This document shows, one piece after another, positions 9,739 to 56,163 of a stretch of 64,000 bases of DNA (its first letter is position 1; every line of letters begins with the position of its first letter). The stretch comes from Sipunculus nudus. Lineage: Eukaryota; Annelida; Sipuncula; Golfingiida; Sipunculidae. The notes beneath the pieces were generated by a model that searched no databases, was not told where the DNA came from, and saw only the letters and a program-made list of their open reading frames with translations. The position numbers and the translations under genes are program-made. The DNA is taken from assembly GCA_026874595.1 (NCBI GenBank), contig CM049307.1, forward strand, positions 79,646,643 to 79,710,642. The letters are read 5' to 3'.

Positions 9739-10027
9739 TAAATATGAAATAAATAAAATGTCCTTTATATTTTCTGGAGTGTTTGTTAAGCTGTGTTTCC
9801 ATGTATCCACAAATATCGTTTCCGCAAAAGACGTACGTACGCTCCTTAGTGCGAAGTCCGCAAAGCCAAAAGCTGTTTCCATAAGTACGTACGTGAAAGA
9901 GGGTGAAAGACCTAAAAACGCACTGAAAAACGTATCTAATGGACACACATGCACAAATATCCGCATACGTATCCGCACCGCACACGCACCTACGGAAGCG
10001 TATATAGGACATGGGAAAAAAAAAAAT

Positions 10028-10206
10028 AATCCGCCCGGGCGGAATACTAATCTGCCCGGGCGGTTTAGTACTTCGCCCGGCGGATTGCTATTTCGCCCGG
10101 GCGGATTGCTATTCCGCCCGGGCAGATTACTATTCCGCCCGGGCGGATGAGTATTTCGCCCGGGCGGGTGAGTGTTCCGCCCGGGCGGAATATATAGTAT
10201 TCCGCT
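10028..10206. repeat. Left subterminal palindromic array (CCGCCCGGGCGG, ~21-bp period)
   Basis: About nine units of roughly 21 bp, consensus ATTCCGCCCGGGCGGATTAGT, the last one diverged (TTCCGCTTGAGCGAAATA). Each core is a perfect or near-perfect palindrome. The array ends about 50 bp upstream of the integrase start codon. By position these are likely transposase-binding sites and/or the promoter region (inference). Confidence 0.9.
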
Positions 10207-10256
10207 TGAGCGAAATAACAGGACTCAACATCGCACTAACGTTTCTGACTTGTAAG

Positions 10257-11158
10257 ATGGATCGACCGGAGATTATTCGTGTATATTTTAATCTGGGATT
10301 TACTCAGAAAGAAATACTTTTGTGTTTAGCACATAACCACAGAATCATCATTAGTCAGAGAAATCTGCGCAGACTGTTAAATAAACAAGGTCTATATCGA
10401 AGAAAAAGACAAACTGATTTAATGACAGTTGCTTTGTTTATTGAGGAGAACCTGCAGCATTGCAGCCAGCTTTATGGCTATCGATGGATGCATCAAAGGT
10501 GCTTACAACAAGGTTATGTTGTAACTCAGGATACTGTTCGGATATTGCAGCAAATACTTGATCCAGAAGGTGTTGAAGCTCGGAGAAGACGGAGACTGGT
10601 TCGTCGAAGATACAGAAGCGTTGGACCGAATGAAACGTGGCATATGGATGGATACGACAAACTAAAACCTTTTGGCTTAGCCATCAGTGGGTGTATAGAC
10701 GGGTTTTCTAGACAAATTATCTGGCTGGAAGCTTATTATACAAATAACAACCCAAAGGTTATATTAAGTTATTATTTAAGTGCAGTTATCGAAAAGGAAG
10801 GCTGTCCAAAAAGAGTGAGAGCTGATATGGGCACCGAGAACGGACGTGTGGAACAAGTGCAAAGATTTCTCCGCCGAAATTCCACAGACAGTTTTGCAGG
10901 ACAAAAGAGTTTTATGTATGGTACAAGCACAACAAACCAAAGGATAGAGGCATGGTGGGGTTTCCTACGAAAAAACTGTGTACAGTACTATATGGATATT
11001 TTGCATACGCTAAAGGAGGATGGTCATTTCACTGGTAATCAGCTGGATAAAGAACTGGTCCGGTTTTGTTTCATGAAACTGCTTCAGGTCAATTAATTAC
11101 ATGCATGTATAAAATTTGAAAAACATTACGACTAATTTATGTAAAATGATTTATGAAA

Positions 11159-11210
<52 letters not shown>

Positions 11211-12030
11211 GGAGAATTGAAACATATATTTACATGTTTTACAAAATAAGGCGCCAAGGCTCCACTGTTAAACTGTTAAGATGTTAACTTCCATCAAATA
11301 GCAGAATATAAAATAGAAAAGCAGAATGGAGGTATAAATTGTGCATGCAGCTAACAAAATGTGACATACTCTGCATAAAATTAAAAAGTCAAAGTCAATT
11401 GGAATGACATGTTAAATGAAAGTTCGTACACGATTTTCTATAAGTGGTACCCACTAGCTATGTCCCTATATTGCACTTATTTCCACATAATAATTAATTT
11501 GTTCAAGGGGAGTAAAAATAGCCAAGTCTTGCAATTGTGTCCACCGCAGTTCTGGGAAAGTGGCTGAACCCATTAGTTTCAAACTTTCCATAATGGTAGC
11601 ATAATATATAGGAGTGATAATATATAGGTGTGATAGTTAATCTTCAACATCACTCTGTGACTATAGTCATTAATATATTTGTATATCAATGTTTCAGAAT
11701 GACCTGGACCGAGTAAAACACACATGGAACACACACAAAATGAGAGTCAATAAAACGATAAACCATCCAGGAGGACGTCCACTGCTGTTCTATTCTCTTC
11801 CTGAATTGTACGGCATGCAAGACCAGATAATTGAAGTAAACTTGGACGAGGTTTATGAATGTGAAGCTGAATGTGTATACAAAGGACAGTATCCGTGTGA
11901 CAGCGACATTTTTGAGATATCGTGTATCCTGATGGACGAAAATGACTGGCAAGTTCCAAAAAGTGGATACGAGGCGGCACAACTATATATAAAACTCATA
12001 AATCAATTACACAATGACCTTGGTATGTGA
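10257..12030 (+). CDS. Integrase-like DDE transposase, two exons
   Basis: Exon 1 is 10257-11087, exon 2 is 11698-12030; donor CTTCAG|GTCAAT and acceptor TTTCAG|AATGAC join in phase 0, giving about 387 residues. Residues 1-52 form a helix-turn-helix-like region (FNLGFTQKEI ... ISQRNLRRLL ... GLYRRK). The RNase H-like catalytic core follows with D131 (WHMDGYDKL), D190 (RVRADMGTENG) and E231 (NQRIEAWWG), spacing D-58-D-40-E. Exon 2 encodes the C-terminal region (HTWNTHKMR, GGRPLLFY, LPELYG, PCDSDIFE). The overall plan matches the putative integrase-core family found scattered in fish, molluscs and other eukaryotes. The product should cut and join element ends in the nucleus. AATAAA at 12073-12078 fits a message ending after exon 2. 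All catalytic residues are intact and there are no frameshifts, so it may be active. An alternative splice past 12022 is treated separately. Confidence 0.88.
11088..11697 (+). other. Integrase intron 1
   Basis: GT at 11088, AG ending at 11697, about 610 bp, AT-rich, with a (TA)n microsatellite at 11164-11210. It falls after the DDE core and before the C-terminal block; the protein family reads continuously across the junction. Confidence 0.8.
11164..11210. repeat. (TA)n microsatellite
   Basis: TA dinucleotides of about 46 bp inside the integrase intron. Confidence 0.95.
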
Positions 12031-12072
12031 AAAGCGGAAATTCAATGCGTGGTCATTCTAATTTTACCGTCA

Positions 12073-12078
12073 AATAAA
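12073..12078 (+). terminator. Polyadenylation signal AATAAA
   Basis: Canonical hexamer 43 bp after the exon-2 stop codon of the integrase gene. Confidence 0.5.
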
Positions 12079-12548
12079 TCATAAACTTGGTTCCTCCCTG
12101 TGTGTTTACCGTTAATTGATTTTTAAAGGAGGAAAATAATATATTGCATTATTGATAATATAACAGTATATCTGGATTCACGAGTCTCACAGATTGCTTA
12201 TCTGGCTAGCTTTCTTATTTTGATCAAACTAAAAATGTTAATGACTCTACAAAGAGCAACACGCTGAATCAAATCGTTTACTGTAGATGTATAAAAGAAC
12301 AATATAAACTTAATCTGATCAAAGTGCATTAAGAATAAAACGTATTTAGCTCTTTTCTTGATTCGACAATTTTTCCATTTGTGTGTCTGTTATCATTTTT
12401 CTTATTTATACTCGTCGATTTAAGGTAGCGTGAGAGATGTATTAAGATATATTAAGTAGGTCAGAGGATGTGTCCTATAAAATTATCAAGACGTATCATA
12501 ACATGTTGTTTCATGATCATATAATATTAGGAAAAAAGAGCATACGGC

Positions 12549-12660
12549 TTTTAGCTCGTCTGGTTCGAAGGACCAATGAGCTTTCAGTATGAGTGGCATC
12601 TGGCGTAGTCCGTCTGTATGTCTGTTAAATTTTGGTATTTTCTTCTCCCAAAATGCTACC
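12549..12660. repeat. Bivalve-type hairpin repeat (AGCTC..GGTTCGAAGGACC..GAGCT)
   Basis: AGCTCGTCTGGTTCGAAGGA CCAATGAGCT forms a hairpin. It is followed by GGCGTAGTCCGTCTGTATGTCTGTTAA, a decayed GTCCGTC tract. This is the head of a repeat I recognise from bivalve genomes (memory-based). Confidence 0.5.
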
Positions 12661-12693
12661 TGAGGAATGGTTTCATATTATGTGTGTAAAATT

Positions 12694-12832
12694 AAACCAT
12701 CACCACTACCGCATTGATATCTGAGTGTTGTTTTAACAAGAGTGTATGGTTAACGGGGGCTCGATTAGTGTTTGTGGAATTTAGTGATGCGGGTTGGACG
12801 GCCAAACCTTGCGAATTTGGAGGTGATGGTTT
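12694..12832. repeat. Small inverted repeat (AAACCATCACC / GGTGATGGTTT)
   Basis: Exact 11-bp arms at 12694-12704 and 12822-12832, about 117 bp apart. It could be a very small non-autonomous element or chance; no clear target duplication. Confidence 0.35.
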
Positions 12833-13531
12833 GTGTATATATTGTGTTTGAATGTTGAAGTGGAGTGGTTTCAGTATTGCTTGGTGATGGGGTGATATGG
12901 CAGGCAGCAAATTCCCCAAGTCTTCCCCATTATCGGTAATGATGCAAAGTTAACAATTAACAGGAAGCGACTAGAATCTTATCTCGTGAAAATGACCGGA
13001 AATACTCCATGGTAAGTATATAGCCAATTTATTGATAACCAGTGCCGCATCACGGAATGGATTTACATCATACATGTTATAAAAACAGTCTCTTGTGATA
13101 GCATAGTTATTACTTATACATAACATATTCATGTGGATTGACAAACCAACAATGATGACAACCCTATCTTCGCATAGTAACAGCCTGATCTATTGATCCT
13201 TACGTGATTGATTCTATGAAAAACGAGCAACAAATTATCATTTATATTCGAAACTCTTATTGTAAAGTGATGCATGCTTTGCATTTATTAATCTTTGTAA
13301 GTCCTCTTTAAAATGATCATGGGGCGTAAGATGGGGCGTAAATCTTGTATCCAAATGGTCATGCGAAAGGTTTTCCTTATGATTAGTCCATAACTATAAC
13401 ATGAAATAAAAATGAAATTCTAGCACCACCACCCCCCCCCCCCCCACCCCATACGGTAAACTAAGATAAGCATTAAACATAACAACAATATCATTCAATT
13501 ACAACCTTTCAGACTCCTTGAAATTTTGTAG

Positions 13532-13633
13532 AGAGCGTACATGAGCGAGTAGGTCTATCTCTTGAACCATACATTGATGAATTAGACACTAATCGTGTTA
13601 ATGCTCTCTCAAGTTATAGAGTTGCTACTATTG
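13532..13633 (+). other. Possible alternative third exon of the integrase gene
   Basis: TTTTGTAG|AGAGCG opens a 102-bp segment ending ATTG|GTAAGT. Joined to a possible donor in exon 2 (CTTG|GTATGT, 12022/12023), the frame stays open and reads VHERVGLSLEPYIDELDTN and on. A further acceptor (ATATTCAG|GTTC, exon 16136-16260) would continue the same phase for about 41 codons to a stop. These exons would lie around and antisense to the HECT coding exon. The AATAAA after exon 2 argues for the shorter form. Confidence 0.3.
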
Positions 13634-13820
13634 GTAAGTCTGCTACACATTAAAGCACGGCAAATGAGGCTCAAATGCCAGATATATATCTAATGTGTAT
13701 TATATTTTATGCAAATGATGTCCGACATGATTAGTCTCTAACAATTACAAGAAATACAGCTTATTTCTATTAATCAGATCATAACAGGATTTCCCATAAA
13801 CCAGTAGGCCTATCACAAGT

Positions 13821-16800
13821 TCAGTCAATGTCAAACTTCCCAGAATGGCCTGCGAGAACATTCAAAAACTCATGCCTGAACTCTGGAAAAGAGGAGTAAG
13901 TACTTGAAAGCTCCAACATGGGCGTACAGGTGCGGGCAATTGGTGCTCTTGCTAAGCCCCGTGCTTTGTTGAATGAGATACTGATCTTCTCTACGCAAAT
14001 GACCCGCGCTCCAGTAACAAAATGCAGAAAATTGACCAGAATATCAGGGGCAAAACCTCTTATGAGCTGTTTCACATATCCAAACACTCTGTTTTCTTCA
14101 ACATCTGCAGGCGATGCCTGTAAAAGCTTCAGTACCTTTCGACATGATGGTTGTTTGGATTCATAAAGATCCAACAGACTTTTCGGATTAGGCAAATTTG
14201 GCAACAAAGCCCCTCTTACAATTGTTGCCATGGCATCGAGAGCATACTTGCTTTGCTGTATCAGTTCAGCCTGAGCGATTTGATTGAGAACTACCTTGAC
14301 ATGATCACCTGTAGGTACAGTATGGCAATCCATACGTGCCAACAAATCCTCGAAGTCTTCCTGATCGTCTTCGTCAACCAGGTTACTATCTAAAGCTTTC
14401 TTAATGACTACCCTCTCTGGTTCCGTTACATAAAGTAGAAAAGATTCCATTAGGAGATCCGTTGATACTTCATGTTCCCCAAACAACATGGCTACCAAAA
14501 AGGCCCTAGAAATCTGTATGGGAAACACTCCGTGATCAAAAAAACCCTTCACGAGAATGCGTCCAACAGCCTCCCATTCACCAAACTGTAAATGAGGCAT
14601 TATGGCTGGCACCCTCTCTTCCTCTCCCTTTGCAGACGAACTCAGGAACTGGTCCCAACAGCAGGTATATGCATCTCTTGAGACCCCATACACATCTACA
14701 CCTCTTTCATTCACAAATGTAAACGTAAGAGGAGTATCTAGTATGTTTGGGTCCATGAATCTGGTGATGATGTCATGCTGAAGCATGACTCTACGCACTC
14801 TGATTTCACCTTGAACTCCTTTAGCGACCACAGGCGATAAAGGTCCAGGCTGAAGTTGCTGTACAAATGCAGCCACGGAAACCTGGGGATCTTGCTCGGA
14901 TGAAAACTGATTAATTGGCTGTATGGATGATGGAGGCGGTGTTGGAGACCGTTGCTCGGGTGAAGACCTATTGGATGAGAAAGGAGTCGGGTCCCTTTCT
15001 GTGTCCTGAACGGATATCTTCTGTTCATCAAACGTCAGCGGGAGAGTATCCGATAAGTTAACATTGGAACACATGGGATCCGGTCCAAATGTGACCTCAT
15101 CGTCATTTGTAGGAGCAGAGCAACTTCCATCAATAACAATCTCCTGTTGGACCCAAGGCTCATCTAAATCAGGCAATGATTCAAAAACCGGACATTCACT
15201 TTGAATTTCGTTTGCCCTGGGCGCGCTGGTATTAACCGGTTGTTTGAAATTACAGGGAGATATCTGTATTGGTGACACCTCATGTTCAATAGGTCCCTGT
15301 AGGACATATACTTGGCTTTGGGTGGGCGTGCTTGCTGTACATATTTGGTTTTGGGTGGGCGTGCTTGTTGTAGCCGGGCGAACCACAGTATGAGACACCT
15401 CTGGTCTTGCAAACGTATCTTGTGTGTCTAACTTACAGTCTGTGACCTTTCTGAGAGGAGGGCCGGTTGAGTACAGAAAAAAACGGAGCTTTCCGCTCAT
15501 TTTCACCATGTCACAAAAATCTCCAACTGTTATATTCGGTGATAGTTCTTCCTGGGTAAAATCACGCACTGTAAAGGTACATTCTTCAACCTTTACAGAT
15601 TTACGACAGACCCCTTTTGGAAAGAATAAATTCTTGGCCTCATTTAACAAATCTTCATGGGTGCTGCTCTTGGCAATAGTTGTTTTTCTAGTCCCGCCAC
15701 CATTTGGCCTTCGAACATTAGTACCATTATGATACCACCCAAACTCTATTGTACGTGTTGATTTGGAAGCATTTTGATTTCCAATTAACTTGCTGGCCTT
15801 CGAGGATGTTTTTATTTCATCCTCAGAATGCTCATCACTATCTTCAAAAGAATCATTAGTGTTTAATCTCATTTTCTTTCGAATAGATGCGTAACATTTC
15901 CTCTTTCTTTGCTGTCTTGCACTTTCTTTGTGAAGAGCCTTTTCTTTCTGACAAAAATCCCTTAGAGCCAATCGGTCACCAATGCACAAGAATTTCGCGA
16001 GCTCATCACTGTTTGACCCCAGCTTTGTCACAACATCCACGTCGATCTAAAAATGAAAGAATCACCCACTGAAAATATATATCATGTACATGTACGTTTT
16101 ACATAAAAATACATATTTTTTCTTATAATATTCAGGTTCTACTCTGTTTCTGCTAAACGTGTTGACACCCCTGCCACTAATGAAGGATTTTTCTAAAGCT
16201 GTCAGACAAGCAAGTATTAAGATAGCAGTCGCTCCATTTAATCACGTACAATCAGCATAATCACAAAAATATACAGAACAAAACAGACGGACTCAACGCT
16301 ACTATTAAGTCATATCTTTAACCTGTGCACTTTAGGCCCCTTTTCCATGCGCGCGGAAACGCGCTGAAATAAATCGCGCATGTGTAAATCAGGTATACCT
16401 TTTCCATGCAGGCGGAAATGCGCGAGTTTAAACGCACCAGTGTTAATCATGTGTCCCTTTTCCATGCACGCGGAAACGCGCGCGGGTGAGCCTGCTTGTG
16501 GAGGTCAAGGACGCGAATGCAGTCTGCTTGAGGACGCCCCAGCATAGTCTTATATCATGCATGGCAACAAATCATACTTAACTGCTGTTATGCTTGTCTA
16601 CTTTAATGCATGATTATATATATATTATATAAACATATATATATATGTGCGGCGGGAGTGTTGAATATCTTATTACCGACTGCGGTAGTTAATAATCTTC
16701 TCATATATAACCTATATATGACCCCCGCCCTCCTGTCAATAGTACATGCACTACCGTAATAAAAACTATACGTTCCTGCAAATATAACGAAATTTTAAAT

Positions 16801-18101
16801 GTCTACATGCATGCAGTGAACAGACACATGCTTCACATGATGCCGGGAAGGCTGTGGGACGGGAATACCTTGTGAAAACAGGTCACGCGAAGGAGGGGAT
16901 TCTGCTGAAACGCGCGCGTTTCCGCGCAAATGGAAAAGCTAAATTCAGCGCGATTTTTTCAACGCGCGGAAACGCGCGCGTTTCCGCACGCATGTAAAAG
17001 GGGCCTTACTTCGGATTACAGATTATGTCATTTAAAGATTTTAATGATTTTGAGTTTAACTTTAAATGAGGTTTTATTTTTATTCTGGAAGATGTTTTTT
17101 TATATTAGGGAAAATGAACATGCGGGTCCTTATTATATATGGTAATATATTGCCTGATAGAAGTTGCGGTGGCGTAACAGGGACAATACATATATGCCAC
17201 TTGTTATATAGATAATGAAAGCGACTATGGATTGAACAATAATATTTAATTCTAAAAATCATAAACCAAAAACATATCTCTGACTCATACAATCACTTCT
17301 GATAGCATTCCTGTTTCGCAAGTCTCGTGTATATACACATGTATCCCTCTTTAAAACCTTGTCACTGACTGACTACTTGCTAGCTCCCCCAGGGACCTCT
17401 GACCCCATGCAGTCCTCCAGTATTCCGGCTAACGGGGAATTCTATTTACATGTATCTGCCGCTTATATCTTTGCCCTAAGGCGTAGACAGCAGTCTCGGT
17501 AACAAGTAGCATAGCAGGCCAGTGTAATATATATATTCAGAGTCGCCTATATCCCTGTAACATAGGCCTATGTCTGGCAGAGCCTATTAGGGTTATGAGA
17601 ACAGTGACAAACTTGGCGGGGTTGGGGTAGTCGGAGGAGCTGAAATCTCGTCTCCATCATTTTAAAACCTTATATCCCCACTGAACAGTATAGGTAAATG
17701 CGTATGTTGACGTTGGATCTTGTAAGGTGAAATATTTAAGTTCTACATTGCACAATTCAGGTTTTCTCTTACCCTAAAATCAAGCGTAATTATCCAACGA
17801 TCTCCACATTCAAATAGGTTTAACGTTATTGTACAAACAGTGTAAGCTACAATATTGACTACTATATTATTCAAGTAACACCAAAATATAAAACAAATAA
17901 TAAAGAAGACAACAGAATCATTTAATTGACTGTATCTTTTGACGTCTTGATTGTTTTTCAATTCTATACTTTTTTATAAGAGAGAACATGGTCTTAAAGT
18001 TCCAAAGCAGGCCTGTTTACCTTTTCATTCTTCATCTCTTGTATAACATCTTCTTTCAAGCCTCTTTTTCTTAAAAAAGTATATATTGGATCCTCTGCCA
18101 T
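13821..18101 (-). CDS. SAM-like/HECT E3 ubiquitin ligase-like protein, two exons
   Basis: Complement join: exon 1 18101-18021 (27 codons, ATG at 18101, ending NEK|GTAAAC), exon 2 16046-13821 (acceptor TTTTTAG|ATCGAC), phase 0, 768 residues. Residues 1-55 resemble a SAM-like helical bundle (FLRKRGLKEDVIQEMKNEK joined to IDVDVV ... LCIGDRLALRDF). About 60-105 is basic then acidic and probably disordered. About 110-220 holds a conserved block (FGWYHNG, GGGTRK, AKNLFFPKG). A Ser/Pro/Gln linker follows. From about 440 to the end is a HECT-like domain (FTFVNERGVDVYGVSRDAY, FPIQISRAF, FLHFVTGAR). The likely thioester cysteine is C734 in IARTC, 34 residues before the C-terminus as in true HECT ligases. 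Such proteins accept ubiquitin from E2 and pass it to substrates. It sits in the same TIR-bounded element as the integrase, convergent with it. Exon 1 is too short for ORF callers. Confidence 0.85.
16047..18020 (-). other. Intron of the HECT gene
   Basis: About 1.97 kb between the donor AAAG|GTAAACAG (minus strand, at 18020) and the acceptor CATTTTTAG (minus strand, at 16047). It houses a 671-bp MITE. The rest is AT-rich without coding signal on this strand. Confidence 0.75.
16335..17005. mobile_element. MITE with GGCCCCTTTTCCATG terminal repeats and TTA flanks
   Basis: Left end GGCCCCTTTTCCATGCGCGC and right end CGCACGCATGTAAAAGGGGCC are inverted copies, flanked by TTA at 16332-16334 and 17006-17008. 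The motif CCTTTTCCATGC..GCGGAAA recurs internally near 16400 and 16458, and GCGCGTTTCCGCG near 16915 and 16980. No coding capacity. A 3-bp TTA flank is what PIF/Harbinger-type MITEs show. The TTTCCATG theme also echoes the ends of the host element. Confidence 0.75.
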
Positions 18102-18204
18102 GTTGAAAACTTCCGCAGCGCTTTCATTCAGCCTTTATGCAACCACTCCCTATACCGCCTAACATCGATCTACGTTCCCGCCAATGTGCACTTTTTATTT
18201 ATAC

Positions 18205-18340
18205 CGGGCGAAATAGGATCCGGGCGAAATAGAATTCCGCCCAGGCAGATTAGTATTCCGCCTGGGCGGATTAGTATTCCGCCCGGGCGGACTAGTATTC
18301 CGCCCGGGCGGACTAGTATTCCGCCCGGGCGGATTATTTT
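18205..18340. repeat. Right subterminal palindromic array
   Basis: Same ~21-bp unit as the left array, here as TTCCGCCCGGGCGGACTAGTA. Five good units plus two decayed ones (CCGGGCGAAATAGG). It is followed by a T-rich run that mirrors the A-rich run before the left array. It starts about 100 bp upstream of the HECT gene start codon. Confidence 0.9.
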
Positions 18341-18739
18341 TTTTTTCAAATATGTCCTATATACGCTTCCGCGCACCGCATCCGTACAAGTGGACACGCG
18401 GCTTAACGCTTGACTCTTTTGAAACTGCACACATGCACGATTTCATTTTAATTGCACCCGGTGACCTGGCGCCGGGGCACAGTTTGGAAATGTAGCCATT
18501 TTTGCCATCCGCAAAACGGATGAATCGCTCACCGTTCCGTTTCGATGCGGTCCGTTTTTGCGGATACCTATGCGGAGCACGTTTACGTACACATGGAAAC
18601 AGTTCATCTTAAAAAGAGGCATACGATTATTTTGCGTACGAGACGTACGAGATTTACGTACATGGAAACACAGCTTACTGTAGAAGATACCACCTCCATA
18701 AACTCTTTATATTTTACTTACAAGTACTTTTCTCGAGTA

Positions 18740-18840
18740 AACAAGACCAGCTGTGACACTGAAATGTACAAGCCGAGTCCGGCGAGTGTTGTTAATTTCA
18801 ATGCCATGGACGGAAAGTACACCCGCACTGGTGTGTGAAA
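18740..18840 (+). repeat. Conserved dispersed ~100-bp repeat, copy 1
   Basis: Core CAGCTGTGACACTGAAATGT ACAAGCC, then GTTAATTTCAATGCC and GGAAAGTACACC. The same core recurs at about 19821, 26590 (reverse), 33567, 46840, 49980 and 59185. Confidence 0.8.
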
Positions 18841-18990
18841 TAAAAACCTATGTTAAAGAAAACAATCGTCTGCTGCGACAAATGATGTCTGCAGCTGGCA
18901 GCCATACTGAAGTATCACTCGACCCAGCGATTCTGGACCTAATGCGTTTGCCTCTCTTTAAGGGAGGGTGCAGTTGGAGCAAAAGATAAC
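18838..18990 (+). other. Coding-like stretch of unknown identity
   Basis: The frame reads EIKTYVKENNRLLRQMMSAA, then SLDPAILDLMRLPLF, with an amphipathic coiled-coil-like start and a good donor nearby (CAATG|GTATGC). A trace of the same sequence (GAAGAAAACAATCGTTTAAA) follows the related repeat at 33838. I cannot name a family; it may be an exon captured by, or belonging to, the repeat. Confidence 0.25.
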
Positions 18991-19170
18991 CCCAGCAGTG
19001 GCTGAAGCAATGGTATGCAGCAACTTATTTCTTATTTAGATATTTATAAAATACTGCATTCATTATTTTTTTATTCTAAAGAAAACAAGGGACCCATGAG
19101 TCACAGTGCTCAGCTGAAATTGATCATAAAAGTCATAAATAATAGATGTTATCATATAGAGATTAATGTA

Positions 19171-20251
19171 ATCCTCTGCCATGTTGAAAACTTCCGCAGC
19201 GCTTTCATTCAGCCTTTATGCAACCACTCCCTATACCGCCTAACATCGATCTACGTTCCCGCCAATGTGCACTTTTTATTTATACCGGGCGAAATAGGAT
19301 CCGGGCGAAATAGAATTCCGCCCAGGCAGATTAGTATTCCGCCTGGGCGGATTAGTATTCCGCCCGGGCGGACTAGTATTCCGCCCGGGCGGACTAGTAT
19401 TCCGCCCGGGCGGATTATTTTTTTTTTCAAATATGTCCTATATACGCTTCCGCGCACCGCATCCGTACAAGTGGACACGCGGCTTAACGCTTGACTCTTT
19501 TGAAACTGCACACATGCACGATTTCATTTTAATTGCACCCGGTGACCTGGCGCCGGGGCACAGTTTGGAAATGTAGCCATTTTTGCCATCCGCAAAACGG
19601 ATGAATCGCTCACCGTTCCGTTTCGATGCGGTCCGTTTTTGCGGATACCTATGCGGAGCACGTTTACGTACACATGGAAACAGTTCATCTTAAAAAGAGG
19701 CATACGATTATTTTGCGTACGAGACGTACGAGATTTACGTACATGGAAACACAGCTTACTGTAGAAGATACCACCTCCATAAACTCTTTATATTTTACTT
19801 ACAAGTACTTTTCTCGAGTAAACAAGACCAGCTGTGACACTGAAATGTACAAGCCGAGTCCGGCGAGTGTTGTTAATTTCAATGCCATGGACGGAAAGTA
19901 CACCCGCACTGGTGTGTGAAATAAAAACCTATGTTAAAGAAAACAATCGTCTGCTGCGACAAATGATGTCTGCAGCTGGCAGCCATACTGAAGTATCACT
20001 CGACCCAGCGATTCTGGACCTAATGCGTTTGCCTCTCTTTAAGGGAGGGTGCAGTTGGAGCAAAAGATAACCCCAGCAGTGGCTGAAGCAATGGTATGCA
20101 GCAACTTATTTCTTATTTAGATATTTATAAAATACTGCATTCATTATTTTTTTATTCTAAAGAAAACAAGGGACCCATGAGTCACAGTGCTCAGCTGAAA
20201 TTGATCATAAAAGTCATAAATAATAGATGTTATCATATAGAGATTAATGTA
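19171..20251. repeat. 1081-bp tandem duplication, unit 2
   Basis: Second unit. It carries an extra copy of the array (about 19286-19421) and of the terminal repeat (ends about 19755), and on the minus strand an orphan HECT start (ATG at 19182) cut off after four codons. The near-perfect identity implies a recent event or an assembly duplication. Confidence 0.95.
19821..19921 (+). repeat. Conserved dispersed ~100-bp repeat, copy 2
   Basis: Identical to copy 1 as part of the tandem duplication. Confidence 0.8.
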
Positions 20252-20399
20252 ATCAAAAGCGAATATTAGTTTAAATGTATCTGTTACATATTTGATGGTT
20301 TAGAAATTCAGGTTTCCAAGATGACTTTTCATGGGCCTCCCTGCATGTCATGATGGAAGATTCTAAAAAAAAACTGTCTGCAAAAACTTATGAATCACT

Positions 20400-22495
20400 C
20401 CATGATCAATATCCATACAAAGAATCATGGTGATCAATGCAATAGTTGTTCAGATACTTCAGCTTTTGTATCAAATTTTCCATTATTCCGGGGGTACTTC
20501 AGAGCCCCATAGCCCAAAGAATATGAGTAACAGAGACCTTATTCCAGGTTTCCAAAGAGACATTTCATGGGTCTCCCGGAATGTCAAGAGAGAAGATTCT
20601 AGGTCCAGTCCTTAGGATTTGTGCCCTGTTAACAGATGACCAAATCTTAAAGAGGTCTCAAAAATAGAGAAAACTAGTGGCCCATGGGCCATGCGCTCAG
20701 CTGAATTCATGGAATGTAGAACAATGAGCAAAATGACTGCCAGAGTGCCGAAAAATCATGAATTTTGTGAAGTCTTTAGAACTGTCAGGTTTATGAGAAA
20801 ACTCTCCAAGACAGATTGACATGCAAAATTTGAGACCGATATCTTGAACCACTCCTAAGATATGAGCAATTTTCACCCAAAGCACATGTAGGCGTGCAGA
20901 TGGCACCACCAGTCTTAAGTACAAGATGGAGGAGTCCAAGATCTATAGGTATGCACCAATTCAGGCCAATACAGCAAACACTCCTGAGAAAAGGGCATTA
21001 ATTTATTCTACAAAAACCGCGAAAGTATGTGGCACCACCTGTCTGGTTTACGAGAAAACTTTCCAAGATGGATGGACATGCAAAATTTCAGACCAATATC
21101 TTGAACCATTCCTGAGATATGAGCAATTTTCACCAAAAGCAAATAAACTGATGGACGCCACACGAAAACAACTGCAGACTGCACCACACTTCTTGTTTAC
21201 AAGATGTAGGTGTTGAGGATCTAAGAACATGCACAATTTTACCCAAATACATTGAAGAACCACTAAAACAAACAGATGGCAAATGCACTGATGGACCCTA
21301 TGCAAAAAGTATTGTAGATGGCCCCATCAGTCGCAAATATGAGATAGAGAGATCCAAGATCTATGAACATGCAAACTTTCAGCACAATACATTGAGCTTT
21401 TCCTGAGATATGGGCTGTTATCTAAAAGACACCCAGATTTTTACTGCACAGAAAGGACTGCTGGTGGTGCCACCTGTCTTTGTTAGGCACAACAACATAG
21501 GTAAAGGAACAACTATGCTCGGTTTCAGAAAGATTGGTCAAAGAGTCTCAATGGAGTTCTCTGGAAACTAGTGCAGAGTTTTTATATCTCATTTTTAATT
21601 ATTCTTGGGGGTATTTAAGAGCCCCATAGCTCAGAGGATATGGGTAACAAAGACTGTATTTCAGATTTCCAGAGACTTTTAATGGACCTCCCTTGTTGTC
21701 AAGTAAGAAGATTCAAGGTCTAGAAGTATCGATTTGTGCCCTGTTAACAGATGACACCTTCTTTAAAGGTATCAGAAATAGAGAAAAAAATTCGTAAAAA
21801 TTAGAAAAAACAGGTGGCACCACCAGTTTGCAGCAACTGACGGAACACTCCATGATCAATATTCATGCAAAGAATCATGGTGATCAATGCATTAGTTGTC
21901 AAGATAGTGCAGCTTTTGTATCAAATTTTTAATTATTCTGGGGGGTACTTATGAGCCCTAAATATCAGAGGATATGAGTAACCTAGACTTAATTATAGGT
22001 TTCCAAAGAGATTTTTCAGGGATCTCTCTGGATATCAAGTTAGTAGATTCAAGGTGGAATAGTTACAATTCCTGCCATGTTAATAGAAGAGCACTACTTT
22101 GGAGGTCCCAAAAATAGAAAAAAACACGTAAAAGTTCGACAAATTCCATGTGGCACCACCAGTTTGCAGGAATGAATGAAACACTCCATGATGAATACCA
22201 ATGCAAAAAATCATGGTGATCAATGCATCAGTTGTCCAGACAGTGCATCATGGTGGTCAAGGCAGTAGTTATTCAGGTACTGAAATTTTTGTTTCAAATT
22301 TTTTATTATTCTGGGGGGTACTAACGAGACCCATAGCTCAGAGAGACCTAATTTCAAGTTTCCCAGGAGATTTTTCATGGACCTCCCATGATGTCAATTT
22401 AGAAGATACCAGGCCCAGCGGTTACGATTTGTGCCCTGTTAACGGACGGACGGACAGACAGACGACAGACCAAGAGTGATCGCTATAGCTCAGCT
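20400..22495 (+). repeat. Long dispersed repeat array, forward orientation
   Basis: Composed of degenerate units of about 340 bp around ATCATGGTGATCAATGCA, a TCAAATTTT..ATTATTC-GGGGGTACT block and GAGTAACAGAGACCT, plus a 20.7-21.4 kb part built on AGATATGAGCAATTTTCACC. It has CTAGTGGCCCATGGGCCA near 20672 and ends in GGACGGACGG..ATAGCTCAGCTGACTG. No coding capacity. The same family occurs inverted at 29565-31455. Confidence 0.8.
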
Positions 22496-46510: not shown

Positions 46511-46515
46511 ACTAA

Positions 46516-46818
46516 AGCTGCGTGTCCACTTATGCGGTACGGATACGGATGCGGATGCGTTTTTAATCGCGCATATGGAATAAAGAAGGAGTGTGTCCAC
46601 TTATGCGGTGCGGAAACGTATACGTTTGTTAAAAACCGGACCATGAAGCCCCGGGTACGGAAACGCATGCGGAAACATGCCATTTTGTAGAGGTTTAAGA
46701 GAGTGAAAGACCTAAAAACGCACTGAAAAACGTATCTAATGGACACACACATACAAAATATCCGCATACGTATCCGCACCGCACACGCACCGCATCCGTA
46801 CAAGTGGACACGCGGCTT
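46516..46818. mobile_element. 303-bp MITE related to the integrase/HECT element
   Basis: Ends AGCTGCGTGTCCACTTATGC and CAAGTGGACACGCGGCTT are inverted repeats, flanked by TAA (46513-46515 and 46819-46821). The segment GTGAAAGACCTAAAAACGCA through TATCCGCACCGCACACGCACC (about 46703-46790) is almost identical to 9901-9989 at the left end of the 9.8-18.7 kb element. The right end also equals the block GCATCCGTACAAGTGGACAC GCGGCTTA at 18378-18406. No coding capacity. Confidence 0.8.
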
Positions 46819-46837
46819 TAATCATAAATGACCTGAC

Positions 46838-53934: not shown

Positions 53935-56163
53935 ATGAGTCTTTTGACTACAATCACGTATCCGGTGGTTACGTTTCTGGCTTTCTGTGTATTATGTATA
54001 AATAGCCAAGAAATATGTGATGTAGAACCACAAATACCACCCGGAGAAATATTCGCTTGCAAAATAAATGACAACGAAAGGAGAGACAATGGACAATTAA
54101 TGTGTGAATATTACCCACAATTTCAAACCCGTGGCTGTTTTTGTGACAAGCATTGCGCCTACTTTGGGGACTGTTGCGATGAGTATATCTCCAATATCAC
54201 AGCACTGGAGGACATTACGTTTTCCTGTAGCTCTGTGGACGGGGTTTACAGTCAGGGTGTTAGCGTTTACGTCGTGGATAGATGCCCATCTTTCTGGAAG
54301 GAAGAAGGAGTGAGGGAAGCTTGTGAAGACACACCGGGTATATGGTACAACTCGCCAGTAACAGGGGAACATGATATTTTGTACAAGAACGTGTACTGTG
54401 CGCAATGTAACGAAGAAAACATGGACAGTATTACTTACTGGCTTTCAAATTTCACGTGCGATTTTATGGATCAGGAACTAACAAACAGTACAAATATCGC
54501 AGATATTATCGATCAGCAAAATCAAACCAGTCCTTGCAATGTGTCATTTGTCCATCCTGACGCCTGGCACAAATATTCCACGTACAAACCATACCGCTTC
54601 TGTAAGCCCAATATTGGCCACTGTCCAGATTCGTGGAAAGATAAGTGTGTACGGAACAAATGTGAAGCTGAGAACGCGACAGAGTTGTACAGATACGACA
54701 AACAAAGAGAGGGCGTAACATACAAAAACCCACATTGTGCTCTCTGTAATAACGCTAACGTCACCTGTGTGGATACCTATACTAAGCAACACTTTAAAAT
54801 TGCTCCGTATTTTGAAACTGTCAGAGGAACATCACACCCACTGTGTATTGTAATAGATCTTAACCTTGGTTCCGGTGTTATCACACGAGAGGTAGGATAT
54901 ATGACAGGGACGCGAGTCAAAGTTGAAACCGAATTAGTGACCTGCCCATCAGGTAAAATATTTGATCCATACTCAGCAGTTTGTAAAGTTGTAAAATGTC
55001 CCCTTGAAGCCGAGTACCGAGACGGACAGTGCGTGAGTACCTCTACCTCCCCAAATAATAATAACACTTGTTCATATTATGCAAAAGTTAATGCCACAAG
55101 CTTTGAGTTTTACAACAATGGTTCCATCTTTGATCCGACTTCAGGTCGAATATACGGGAAGGACCTATATGTACTAGAGGAGCGTGGTATGTACCTATGT
55201 ATCGTTGATGCCATAAACATCACAGAAATAACACGCAATGTTACAGAGACATATCTCATTATGAAGTTTACCTACGCCCAGACGGTTGTTAGTAATTTAG
55301 GACAGAGTCTGTCAGTGATAGCGTTGCTCTTTCTCCTTGTGATCTACTGTTTCTATCCCGTTTTGAGGAATTTACCCGGCAAAAACCTCATGTGTCTGTC
55401 TGGTTCCTTGTTAATGTTTCAGCTGATGCAGATGACGTTGATGGGCGTGACCCACCTGCCGTTTTTCTGTATTATATCGGGAATTCTAATACACTTCAGT
55501 CTCCTTGCCGTGTTCTGTTGGATGAGTGTTCTCGCCTATGACATTTGGAGCACCTTTACCTCCAGGATTACAGTTTCAACAATTGTTAAATCAGACTTCC
55601 GGTTCCTCAAGTTTTCTCTGTATGCTTGGGGATGCCCCGCTCTGGTCATCCTTATAGGAGTACTGGTTAATTTCTGCGGTGGCAAAAGAAGTGACTTCTC
55701 CCCAGATTACGGTAAACACATTTGCTACATCTCAAACAGGTACGCTTTAATGCTGTATGTTGGAGTACCTCTTATCGGTCTGTTATTTGCTGACTGTGTA
55801 TTTTATACTCTAACAATCATAAGCATACACCGAACCAGCAACGTGACCACAGCGATCAGCGAGAACTGTCCAAACCGTCATAGGATGTGGTTGTACGTAA
55901 AGCTGACCTCCATCACGGGGTTGACATGGGTGTTTGGTCTGATCGGCTTCAGCACGGACCTTCAATTTCTCTGGTGGGTTTATATCCTCTTTAATTCTCT
56001 CCAAGGTGTTTTTATCTGCGTATCATTCGTTTGTACTCGAAAGGTATTTAAGATGATGCGCGAGACTTATCGGAGAAAACCTAGTGTGGACGCCAGTAAG
56101 AGTACTTCTTTACAGACTCAGCGCACCTCAGTTACGTCCGAAACCGCACATCGAACTCACTGA
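53935..56163 (+). CDS. Methuselah-like class B GPCR with somatomedin-B domain
   Basis: Single-exon, 742 residues, ATG at 53935. Residues 1-25 form a signal peptide. A somatomedin-B-like domain spans about 42-84 (CEYYPQ ... CFCDKHCAYFGDCCDEY). A cysteine-rich module of the form CP..W....(x)C....(x)Y.....YKN..CA.CN occurs twice (about 115-165 and 222-275), with several N-glycosylation sequons. Seven hydrophobic helices span about 452-700. They include TM3 FSLLAVFCWMSVLAYDIW, TM6 KLTSITGLTWVFG and TM7 WVYILFNSLQGVFICVSFV, hallmarks of the secretin/adhesion/Methuselah group. No clear GPS cleavage motif precedes TM1, favouring a Methuselah-like receptor over a classic adhesion GPCR. The tail is short, Ser/Thr-rich and basic. 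The receptor would sit in the plasma membrane; ligand unknown. The SMB-plus-Mth layout is, to my knowledge, an expanded mollusc type. Confidence 0.92.
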   Translation: MSLLTTITYPVVTFLAFCVLCINSQEICDVEPQIPPGEIFACKINDNERRDNGQLMCEYYPQFQTRGCFCDKHCAYFGDCCDEYISNITALEDITFSCSSVDGVYSQGVSVYVVDRCPSFWKEEGVREACEDTPGIWYNSPVTGEHDILYKNVYCAQCNEENMDSITYWLSNFTCDFMDQELTNSTNIADIIDQQNQTSPCNVSFVHPDAWHKYSTYKPYRFCKPNIGHCPDSWKDKCVRNKCEAENATELYRYDKQREGVTYKNPHCALCNNANVTCVDTYTKQHFKIAPYFETVRGTSHPLCIVIDLNLGSGVITREVGYMTGTRVKVETELVTCPSGKIFDPYSAVCKVVKCPLEAEYRDGQCVSTSTSPNNNNTCSYYAKVNATSFEFYNNGSIFDPTSGRIYGKDLYVLEERGMYLCIVDAINITEITRNVTETYLIMKFTYAQTVVSNLGQSLSVIALLFLLVIYCFYPVLRNLPGKNLMCLSGSLLMFQLMQMTLMGVTHLPFFCIISGILIHFSLLAVFCWMSVLAYDIWSTFTSRITVSTIVKSDFRFLKFSLYAWGCPALVILIGVLVNFCGGKRSDFSPDYGKHICYISNRYALMLYVGVPLIGLLFADCVFYTLTIISIHRTSNVTTAISENCPNRHRMWLYVKLTSITGLTWVFGLIGFSTDLQFLWWVYILFNSLQGVFICVSFVCTRKVFKMMRETYRRKPSVDASKSTSLQTQRTSVTSETAHRTH

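Follow-up and report, generated by a model that had tools for sequence, protein, structure and literature searches.

An IS3EU-like transposable element of Sipunculus nudus with a transposase gene and a convergent gene for a predicted HECT-type E3 ligase

Introduction

Complete families of IS3EU (GingerRoot) transposons always have TA..TA termini and usually 6-bp target duplications, and the first catalytic D of IS3EU / GingerRoot transposases is located 100–300 residues from the N-terminus (PMC10045372). In the IS3EU elements of rust fungi, which have TAYGG..CCRTA ends and terminal inverted repeats (TIRs) of more than 30 bp, an alpha-kinase gene is positioned opposite the transposase (PMC12730594). 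OTU or Ulp1 protease domains are found in the transposases of Ginger1, and the authors of that work suggest a role of the ubiquitin pathway in transposition (PMC2836005). Convergent RAG1-like and RAG2-like genes are found in the RAG-like (RAGL) transposons of animals (PMC7204232). These four papers are cited for selected sections. The element described here was found in a stretch of 64,000 nucleotides of the sipunculan Sipunculus nudus (assembly GCA_026874595.1 of 1.43 Gb, contig CM049307.1, C2:79646643-79710642), called the window, and carries an integrase-type transposase gene and a convergent gene for a HECT-like protein.

A preliminary description of the window, made from the sequence alone, had proposed a TIR-bounded element with both genes at 9789..18674. 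One mobile unit with both genes was indeed found, with its ends corrected to 9991–18371. We lean towards the reading that it is an autonomous cut-and-paste transposon of the IS3EU kind, from a lineage with a fixed pair of a transposase and a convergent HECT E3 ligase, in which the ligase would tag a protein restricting transposition. Because related elements carry the same pair, the ligase appears to be a long-standing functional component rather than a stray passenger.

Results

Ends and target site

A second copy of the element is located at C6:9261046-9269454, with 99.6% identity to window positions 9990–18333, and the match stops at the inner ends. The C6 copy starts with TACGGAAGCGTATATAGGACAT, ends with CGCTTCCGTA and has CATAAC on either side. 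The window copy starts with TACGG at 9991, ends with CTTCCG at 18371 and has CGCACC on either side. The two elements measure 8381 bp (window) and 8409 bp (C6) and differ by 33 mismatches and 6 indels. The coding exons of both genes are stop-free in both copies, and with the near-identity of the copies this indicates that the family moved fairly recently. The following features were assigned:

9991..18371: whole IS3EU-like transposable element (C6 copy with the same ends, TACGG..CCG(TA), 6-bp duplication)
9985..9990: CGCACC, target site duplication on the left
18372..18377: CGCACC, target site duplication on the right
10017..10193: left palindromic array of CCGCCCGGGCGG units (inverted repeats within the array and with its counterpart on the right)
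18220..18346: right palindromic array, mirrored (inverted repeats)
9787..9990: left part of a host inverted-repeat element (left TIR of the preliminary description)
18378..18677: right part of the host inverted-repeat element (right TIR of the preliminary description)
46697..46818: related repeat without the insertion, a paralogous empty site (117 of 122 columns identical in the alignment with the rejoined flanks)

Inverted outer ends with TTA on each side had been taken as the boundaries. The outer inverted repeat exists: TAAGCTGTGTTTCCATG starts at 9787, and its complement ends at 18677. Removal of the element and one CGCACC leaves a unit of 504 bp, the first 19 bases of which are exactly inverted at the opposite end, so that these TIRs are those of a host inverted-repeat element, which has TAAGCTGTGTTTCCATGTA ends and is interrupted by the insertion. 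The outer AGCTGTGTTTCCATG/TTA repeats were therefore rejected as element ends, since the C6 match stops at the inner ends and the outer flanks rejoin to the 504-bp unit. TTA was rejected as a target duplication, being part of the TA..TA ends of the host unit itself. The outer TA..TA repeat was also considered as an IS3EU end without duplication; this is ruled out by the C6 copy, which ends at the inner termini and has none of the outer flanks.

In the related repeat at 46697–46818 the interior of the host unit is uninterrupted. Empty sites in another haplotype had been proposed as a means to define the boundaries; the one found here is paralogous, and it supports the inner boundaries, not the outer ones. 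The larger region 46515–46820 is an inverted-repeat element with GCGTGTCCACTT-type ends, of which an interior of approximately 120 bp is common with the split host element.

Two further repeats adjoin the element. The segment 19171–20254 is an exact repeat of 18090–19173, a tandem duplication of about 1.08 kb of the right end of the element and its flank, either a recent event or an assembly artefact. Degenerate 'aagatggatggacatgcaaaatt'-type repeats were seen by eye at about 20300–22000, with like sequence inside family A (see below).

Transposase gene

One intron is predicted in each gene. The exons are:

10257..11087 (+): transposase exon 1, with helix-turn-helix-like helices and the D-D-E core (Pfam PF24764, E=2.8e-27)
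11698..12030 (+): transposase exon 2 including the stop (predicted from full-length animal homologs and splice sites)
18021..18101 (−): HECT gene exon 1, first half of the SAM-like region (predicted from the start, the splice donor and comparable exons of families A and C)
13821..16046 (−): HECT gene exon 2, with the rest of the SAM-like region, the GW..GGGTR domain, a disordered linker and the HECT domain

An open frame of 361 amino acids at 10011–11096 (+) contains PF24764, an integrase core. The transposase model joins 10257–11087 to 11698–12027, giving 387 amino acids, with an intron proposed from splice sites and homology; its donor sequence is GTCAAT in the window copy and GTAAAT in that of C6. 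Six animal proteins (from fish, oyster, holothurian, firefly and acorn worm) align with the transposase, five nearly over the full length and one without the N-terminus. Residues D131, D190 and E231 are invariant in an alignment of 19 sequences. The predicted model of exon 1 (mean predicted local distance difference test score, pLDDT, 79; predicted template modelling score, pTM, 0.49) matches structures of TnsB, IstA and retroviral integrase with low template modelling (TM) scores.

At least 112 transposase matches are present in the assembly. A scan of viral contigs with the two proteins and the two alignments found no relatives, and the other genome contigs scanned gave one distant match, in a Myxococcales metagenome-assembled genome. 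This match is a frame of 657 amino acids (L001:1107-3077) that matches the transposase profile with about 30% identity; it is either a bacterial relative or lies on a misbinned eukaryotic contig.

HECT gene and protein

On the minus strand, an open frame of 739 amino acids spans 13821–16040. The model 18101–18021 plus 16046–13824 gives a protein of 768 amino acids, its intron likewise predicted from splice sites and homology. The genes had been described as intact in frame, which holds for the coding exons of the window and C6 copies, with the addition of one predicted intron each. As described earlier, an integrase-type gene on the plus strand and a HECT-like gene on the minus strand are convergent. 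The Pfam match to HECT falls just under the cut-off. Both genes lie inside the corrected ends, and each starts just inside mirrored CCGCCCGGGCGG arrays, as had also been noted.

In the predicted fold, the HECT domain has mostly >90 pLDDT, the middle domain around GW..GGGTR is fairly confident, and a long disordered linker separates the two. All 50 rows listed by Foldseek are HECT proteins, the best being the HECT domain of HUWE1 (E=1e-11), with low to moderate TM-scores (up to 0.60 by target). With the family profile, matches to solved HECT domains extend over both lobes; the TC motif of the profile aligns with the TC of TOM1, which we take to hold the catalytic cysteine.

The preliminary description had proposed profile searches for an integrase core, HECT and SAM. 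The integrase core was found; for SAM, no Pfam family matched any of three N-termini up to E=10, and the best PDB profile match is SAMHD1 with a non-significant E of 0.089. The region is called SAM-like here on its residue pattern. A HECT profile run over the window found this one gene and no second.

An inverted-repeat insert with GGCCCCTTTTCCATGCGCGCGG.. ends, recognised by eye, seemingly lies within the HECT intron at about 16335–17008. Elsewhere in the window, a frame of 742 amino acids at 53935–56163 (+) has by eye the look of a seven-helix receptor and a weak Somatomedin_B match below the cut-off.

Sister families in the genome

Ten transposase loci were traced downstream: the window, C6, C10:24.4 Mb, C17, C10:16.9 Mb, C11, C16:48.1 Mb, C14, C2:43.6 Mb and C16:40.5 Mb; the remaining matches among the at least 112 stand outside these ten. 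Loci L002–L031 were read with about 1.5 kb of flank each. A HECT gene or remnant, convergent with the transposase, was found at nine of the ten loci and in all six families examined (the family of the window, W, and families A, C, D, E and F). Groups B and C are not two families but one, lying on opposite strands.

In W, the HECT gene is whole in the window and in C6, and the locus at C10:24.4 Mb is a decayed copy with the same TACGG end and convergent HECT remnants. Family A is represented by C17:22613458-22635653 (22.2 kb), with TACGGAAGCGTATTGCTGCC at both ends, the duplication AGTTCT, a transposase on the minus strand and a whole HECT frame of 646 amino acids on the plus strand. Its second copy at C10:16.9 Mb is 99.5% identical over the 8.8 kb compared and has a HECT frame of equal length. 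The family C element C11:5747744-5771174 (23.4 kb) has TACGGTGGCTGATTTAGGACAC at both ends, the duplication CTAAGT, a transposase on the plus strand and a whole HECT frame of 651 amino acids on the minus strand.

Both ends were delimited in W, A and C. Duplications of 6 bp are present at both ends of all four copies with both ends read (CGCACC in the window, CATAAC in C6, AGTTCT in C17 and CTAAGT in C11), and TA..TA termini at both ends of the C6, C17 and C11 copies. Just inside the ends, self-complementary motifs are repeated in mirrored arrangement: CCGCCCGGGCGG in W (three exact copies per side), CGTACGTACG in A (12 and 14) and CTCGAG in C (3 and 3). The terminal 120 bp of the left and right ends are 82% (W), 98% (A) and 94% (C) identical.

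Whole HECT frames are kept in W, A and C despite a protein identity of only 27–37% between these families. The HECT intron falls in the N-terminal region and has the same position in W and A, exon 2 beginning with ATCGACG and ATTGATC after AG, and first exons similar to that of W lie upstream in A and C. Wherever the C-lobe was aligned, in the five families W, A, C, D and E, the catalytic cysteine is conserved.

A search for further copies with both open reading frames had been proposed; such copies were found in C6 and, whole or as remnants, in every family examined. Copies of the transposase gene without the HECT gene and with closer, different ends had been named as the outcome that would speak against a single unit. 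The ends did turn out to be closer and of another kind, yet they still enclose the HECT gene, and no copy among the ten loci was shown to lack it.

These copies also bear on the possibility that, by chance, a transposase element came to lie between the outer repeats together with a separate HECT gene or HECT element. Nesting is common at this locus, as the element itself sits in a host repeat and the HECT intron seems to hold an insert. The same pair nevertheless recurs between the same ends in the window, in C6 and in families A and C, which makes a chance arrangement highly improbable.

In a family F element, inverted transposase fragments lie near the HECT remnant (L042:7847-8320), and opposite-strand fragments about 10 kb off recur at other family F loci.

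Relatives and pairing in other organisms

The search for transposase homologs gave 1359 matches, of which 120 were listed. Both searches for HECT homologs scored only the candidates with most words in common. Two of seven HECT matches are located on contigs of exactly the same size as those of transposase matches among the 120 listed: P0122 and P0118 (3,234,494 bases), and P0127 and P0056 (34,240 bases). This suggests, but does not prove, that both genes are on one contig in other organisms. P0127 consists of the N-terminal half of the HECT protein only, fused into an unrelated kinase.

Relatives of the HECT protein were found among uncharacterized proteins of zebrafish, sea urchin, goby and killifish. 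They have a related HECT domain, and zebrafish P0131 also contains the GW..GGGTR region; presumably these are the proteins that carry the label 'G2E3-like'. Among the repeats of sculpins, one unclassified repeat with a match to G2E3 is mentioned in the sections drawn on of a repeat study (PMC5638112).

Divergence of the two proteins

Divergence between families is faster in the HECT protein than in the transposase. Percent identity in one protein correlates with that in the other (r 0.70 over 21 non-independent pairs; 0.68 over the 15 pairs without the truncated protein). P0127 was trimmed to its first 330 residues before alignment because the remainder is unrelated. The correlation fits joint descent and is no test of interaction.

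The HECT protein could regulate the transposase itself, through its turnover or its removal from finished strand-transfer complexes, and have no part in host defence. In favour of this, the gene pair is kept together and the identities are correlated. However, joint descent alone would produce such a correlation, and the faster divergence of the HECT protein fits a changing partner at least as well. We consider a role confined to the transposase possible but rather doubtful.

Discussion

Proposed function of the element

For the reading favoured here, an IS3EU-like transposon with a ligase acting on a protein that limits transposition, the following course can be proposed. The transposase would bind the TACGG ends and perhaps also the mirrored palindromic arrays, excise the element at its TA..TA ends and insert it with a stagger of 6 bp. 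The HECT protein, if its domain is active, would take ubiquitin from an E2 on the conserved cysteine. Its N-terminal SAM-like and GW..GGGTR regions may guide it to a target, and the protein tagged would be one limiting transposition, with a host factor of silencing or repair as the likeliest candidate. The preliminary description had likewise suggested that the HECT protein could modulate transposase turnover, host repair or silencing. The host target is a guess; a host factor is ranked above the transposase on account of the faster divergence of the HECT protein, which is weak evidence.

Several observations weigh against this reading. The window copy is without the right terminal TA. The HECT domain of the window copy scores 22.0 bits in Pfam, with a cut-off of 23.9, and the HECT frame of family C gave no Pfam match; families A, D and E pass the cut-off. 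The GVSR motif of the N-lobe is altered in families C and D. At C16:48.1 Mb, a copy of family C, no HECT gene was found within the approximately 9.5 kb read, the gene of its family-mate lying about 12 kb away. None of 12 further HECT matches is located on a contig of the size of that of a listed transposase. The HECT gene of family D (C14) consists of two frames split by one stop, that of family E (C16:40.5 Mb) is fragmented and that of family F (C2:43.6 Mb) is reduced to a C-lobe remnant. Of the 13 differences in coding sequence that separate the window copy from the C6 copy, 11 are nonsynonymous, so that no purifying selection is visible between the two.

The last two observations, the broken or reduced genes of the D, E and F copies read and the mostly nonsynonymous differences between two recent copies, would also fit a passenger gene that was picked up from the host and plays no part in transposition. 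Yet the transposases of decayed copies are broken too, for example at C10:24.4 Mb. In addition, HECT was found in all six families examined at the same convergent place, which argues for one old acquisition and retention, and three families have whole frames and the conserved catalytic cysteine. A mere passenger is thus unlikely.

If the ligase is indeed a working part of the transposon, the pairing may reach further. Tentatively, a whole animal branch of IS3EU-like transposons could have had HECT as a regular second gene since before the families diverged, with a ligase activity aiding transposition; many unexplained HECT genes of fish and invertebrates would then be transposon genes or their domesticated descendants. 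Such a set of unannotated animal HECT genes may be explained in this way. The retention of a ligase beside the transposase through deep divergence suggests a function needed by transposition, and the element could offer a handle on how DNA transposons cope with host defence or repair.

Comparison with known systems

A literature search gave no paper combining the words HECT and IS3EU, and at abstract level none of the top-ranked matches describes a DNA transposon with a HECT ligase. Repbase was outside this search, so that an entry for such an element may exist there. The word HECT does not occur in PMC10045372 or PMC12730594.

PIF/Harbinger-like elements have a 3-bp TTA/TWA duplication at their ends. 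This class was rejected for the present element, the duplications of which are 6 bp long, the TTA belonging to the host repeat.

With the RAGL transposons, as far as the sections cited describe them, the element has in common that an animal DNA transposon combines a transposase and a convergent accessory gene. This is an analogy of layout only; their transposase belongs to another superfamily and the RAG2-like protein is no HECT protein.

Ginger1 is similar in being an integrase-type DNA transposon with an enzyme of the ubiquitin/SUMO system. Proteases removing ubiquitin or SUMO are thus on record in transposons (PMC2836005, sections cited), and in Ginger1 they are fused to the transposase. 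The predicted HECT ligase would be their ubiquitin-adding counterpart, encoded by a separate, convergent gene.

The closest likeness is to IS3EU as described in the sections cited: TA..TA termini, TAYGG..CCRTA ends, 6-bp duplications, long TIRs and an integrase-like D-D-E transposase. The TACGG ends agree with TAYGG..CCRTA, the 6-bp duplications agree as well, and D131 of the window copy agrees with the range of 100–300 residues. The rust-fungus elements share the presence of a second gene, the alpha-kinase, opposite the transposase (PMC12730594). The S. nudus elements differ in having a HECT-type E3 ligase as the convergent second gene and mirrored palindromic arrays inside the ends. On the basis of the ends and duplications matching IS3EU, and of the HECT partner recurring across families, they are best described from their sequences as putative IS3EU-like elements with an ancestral HECT partner.

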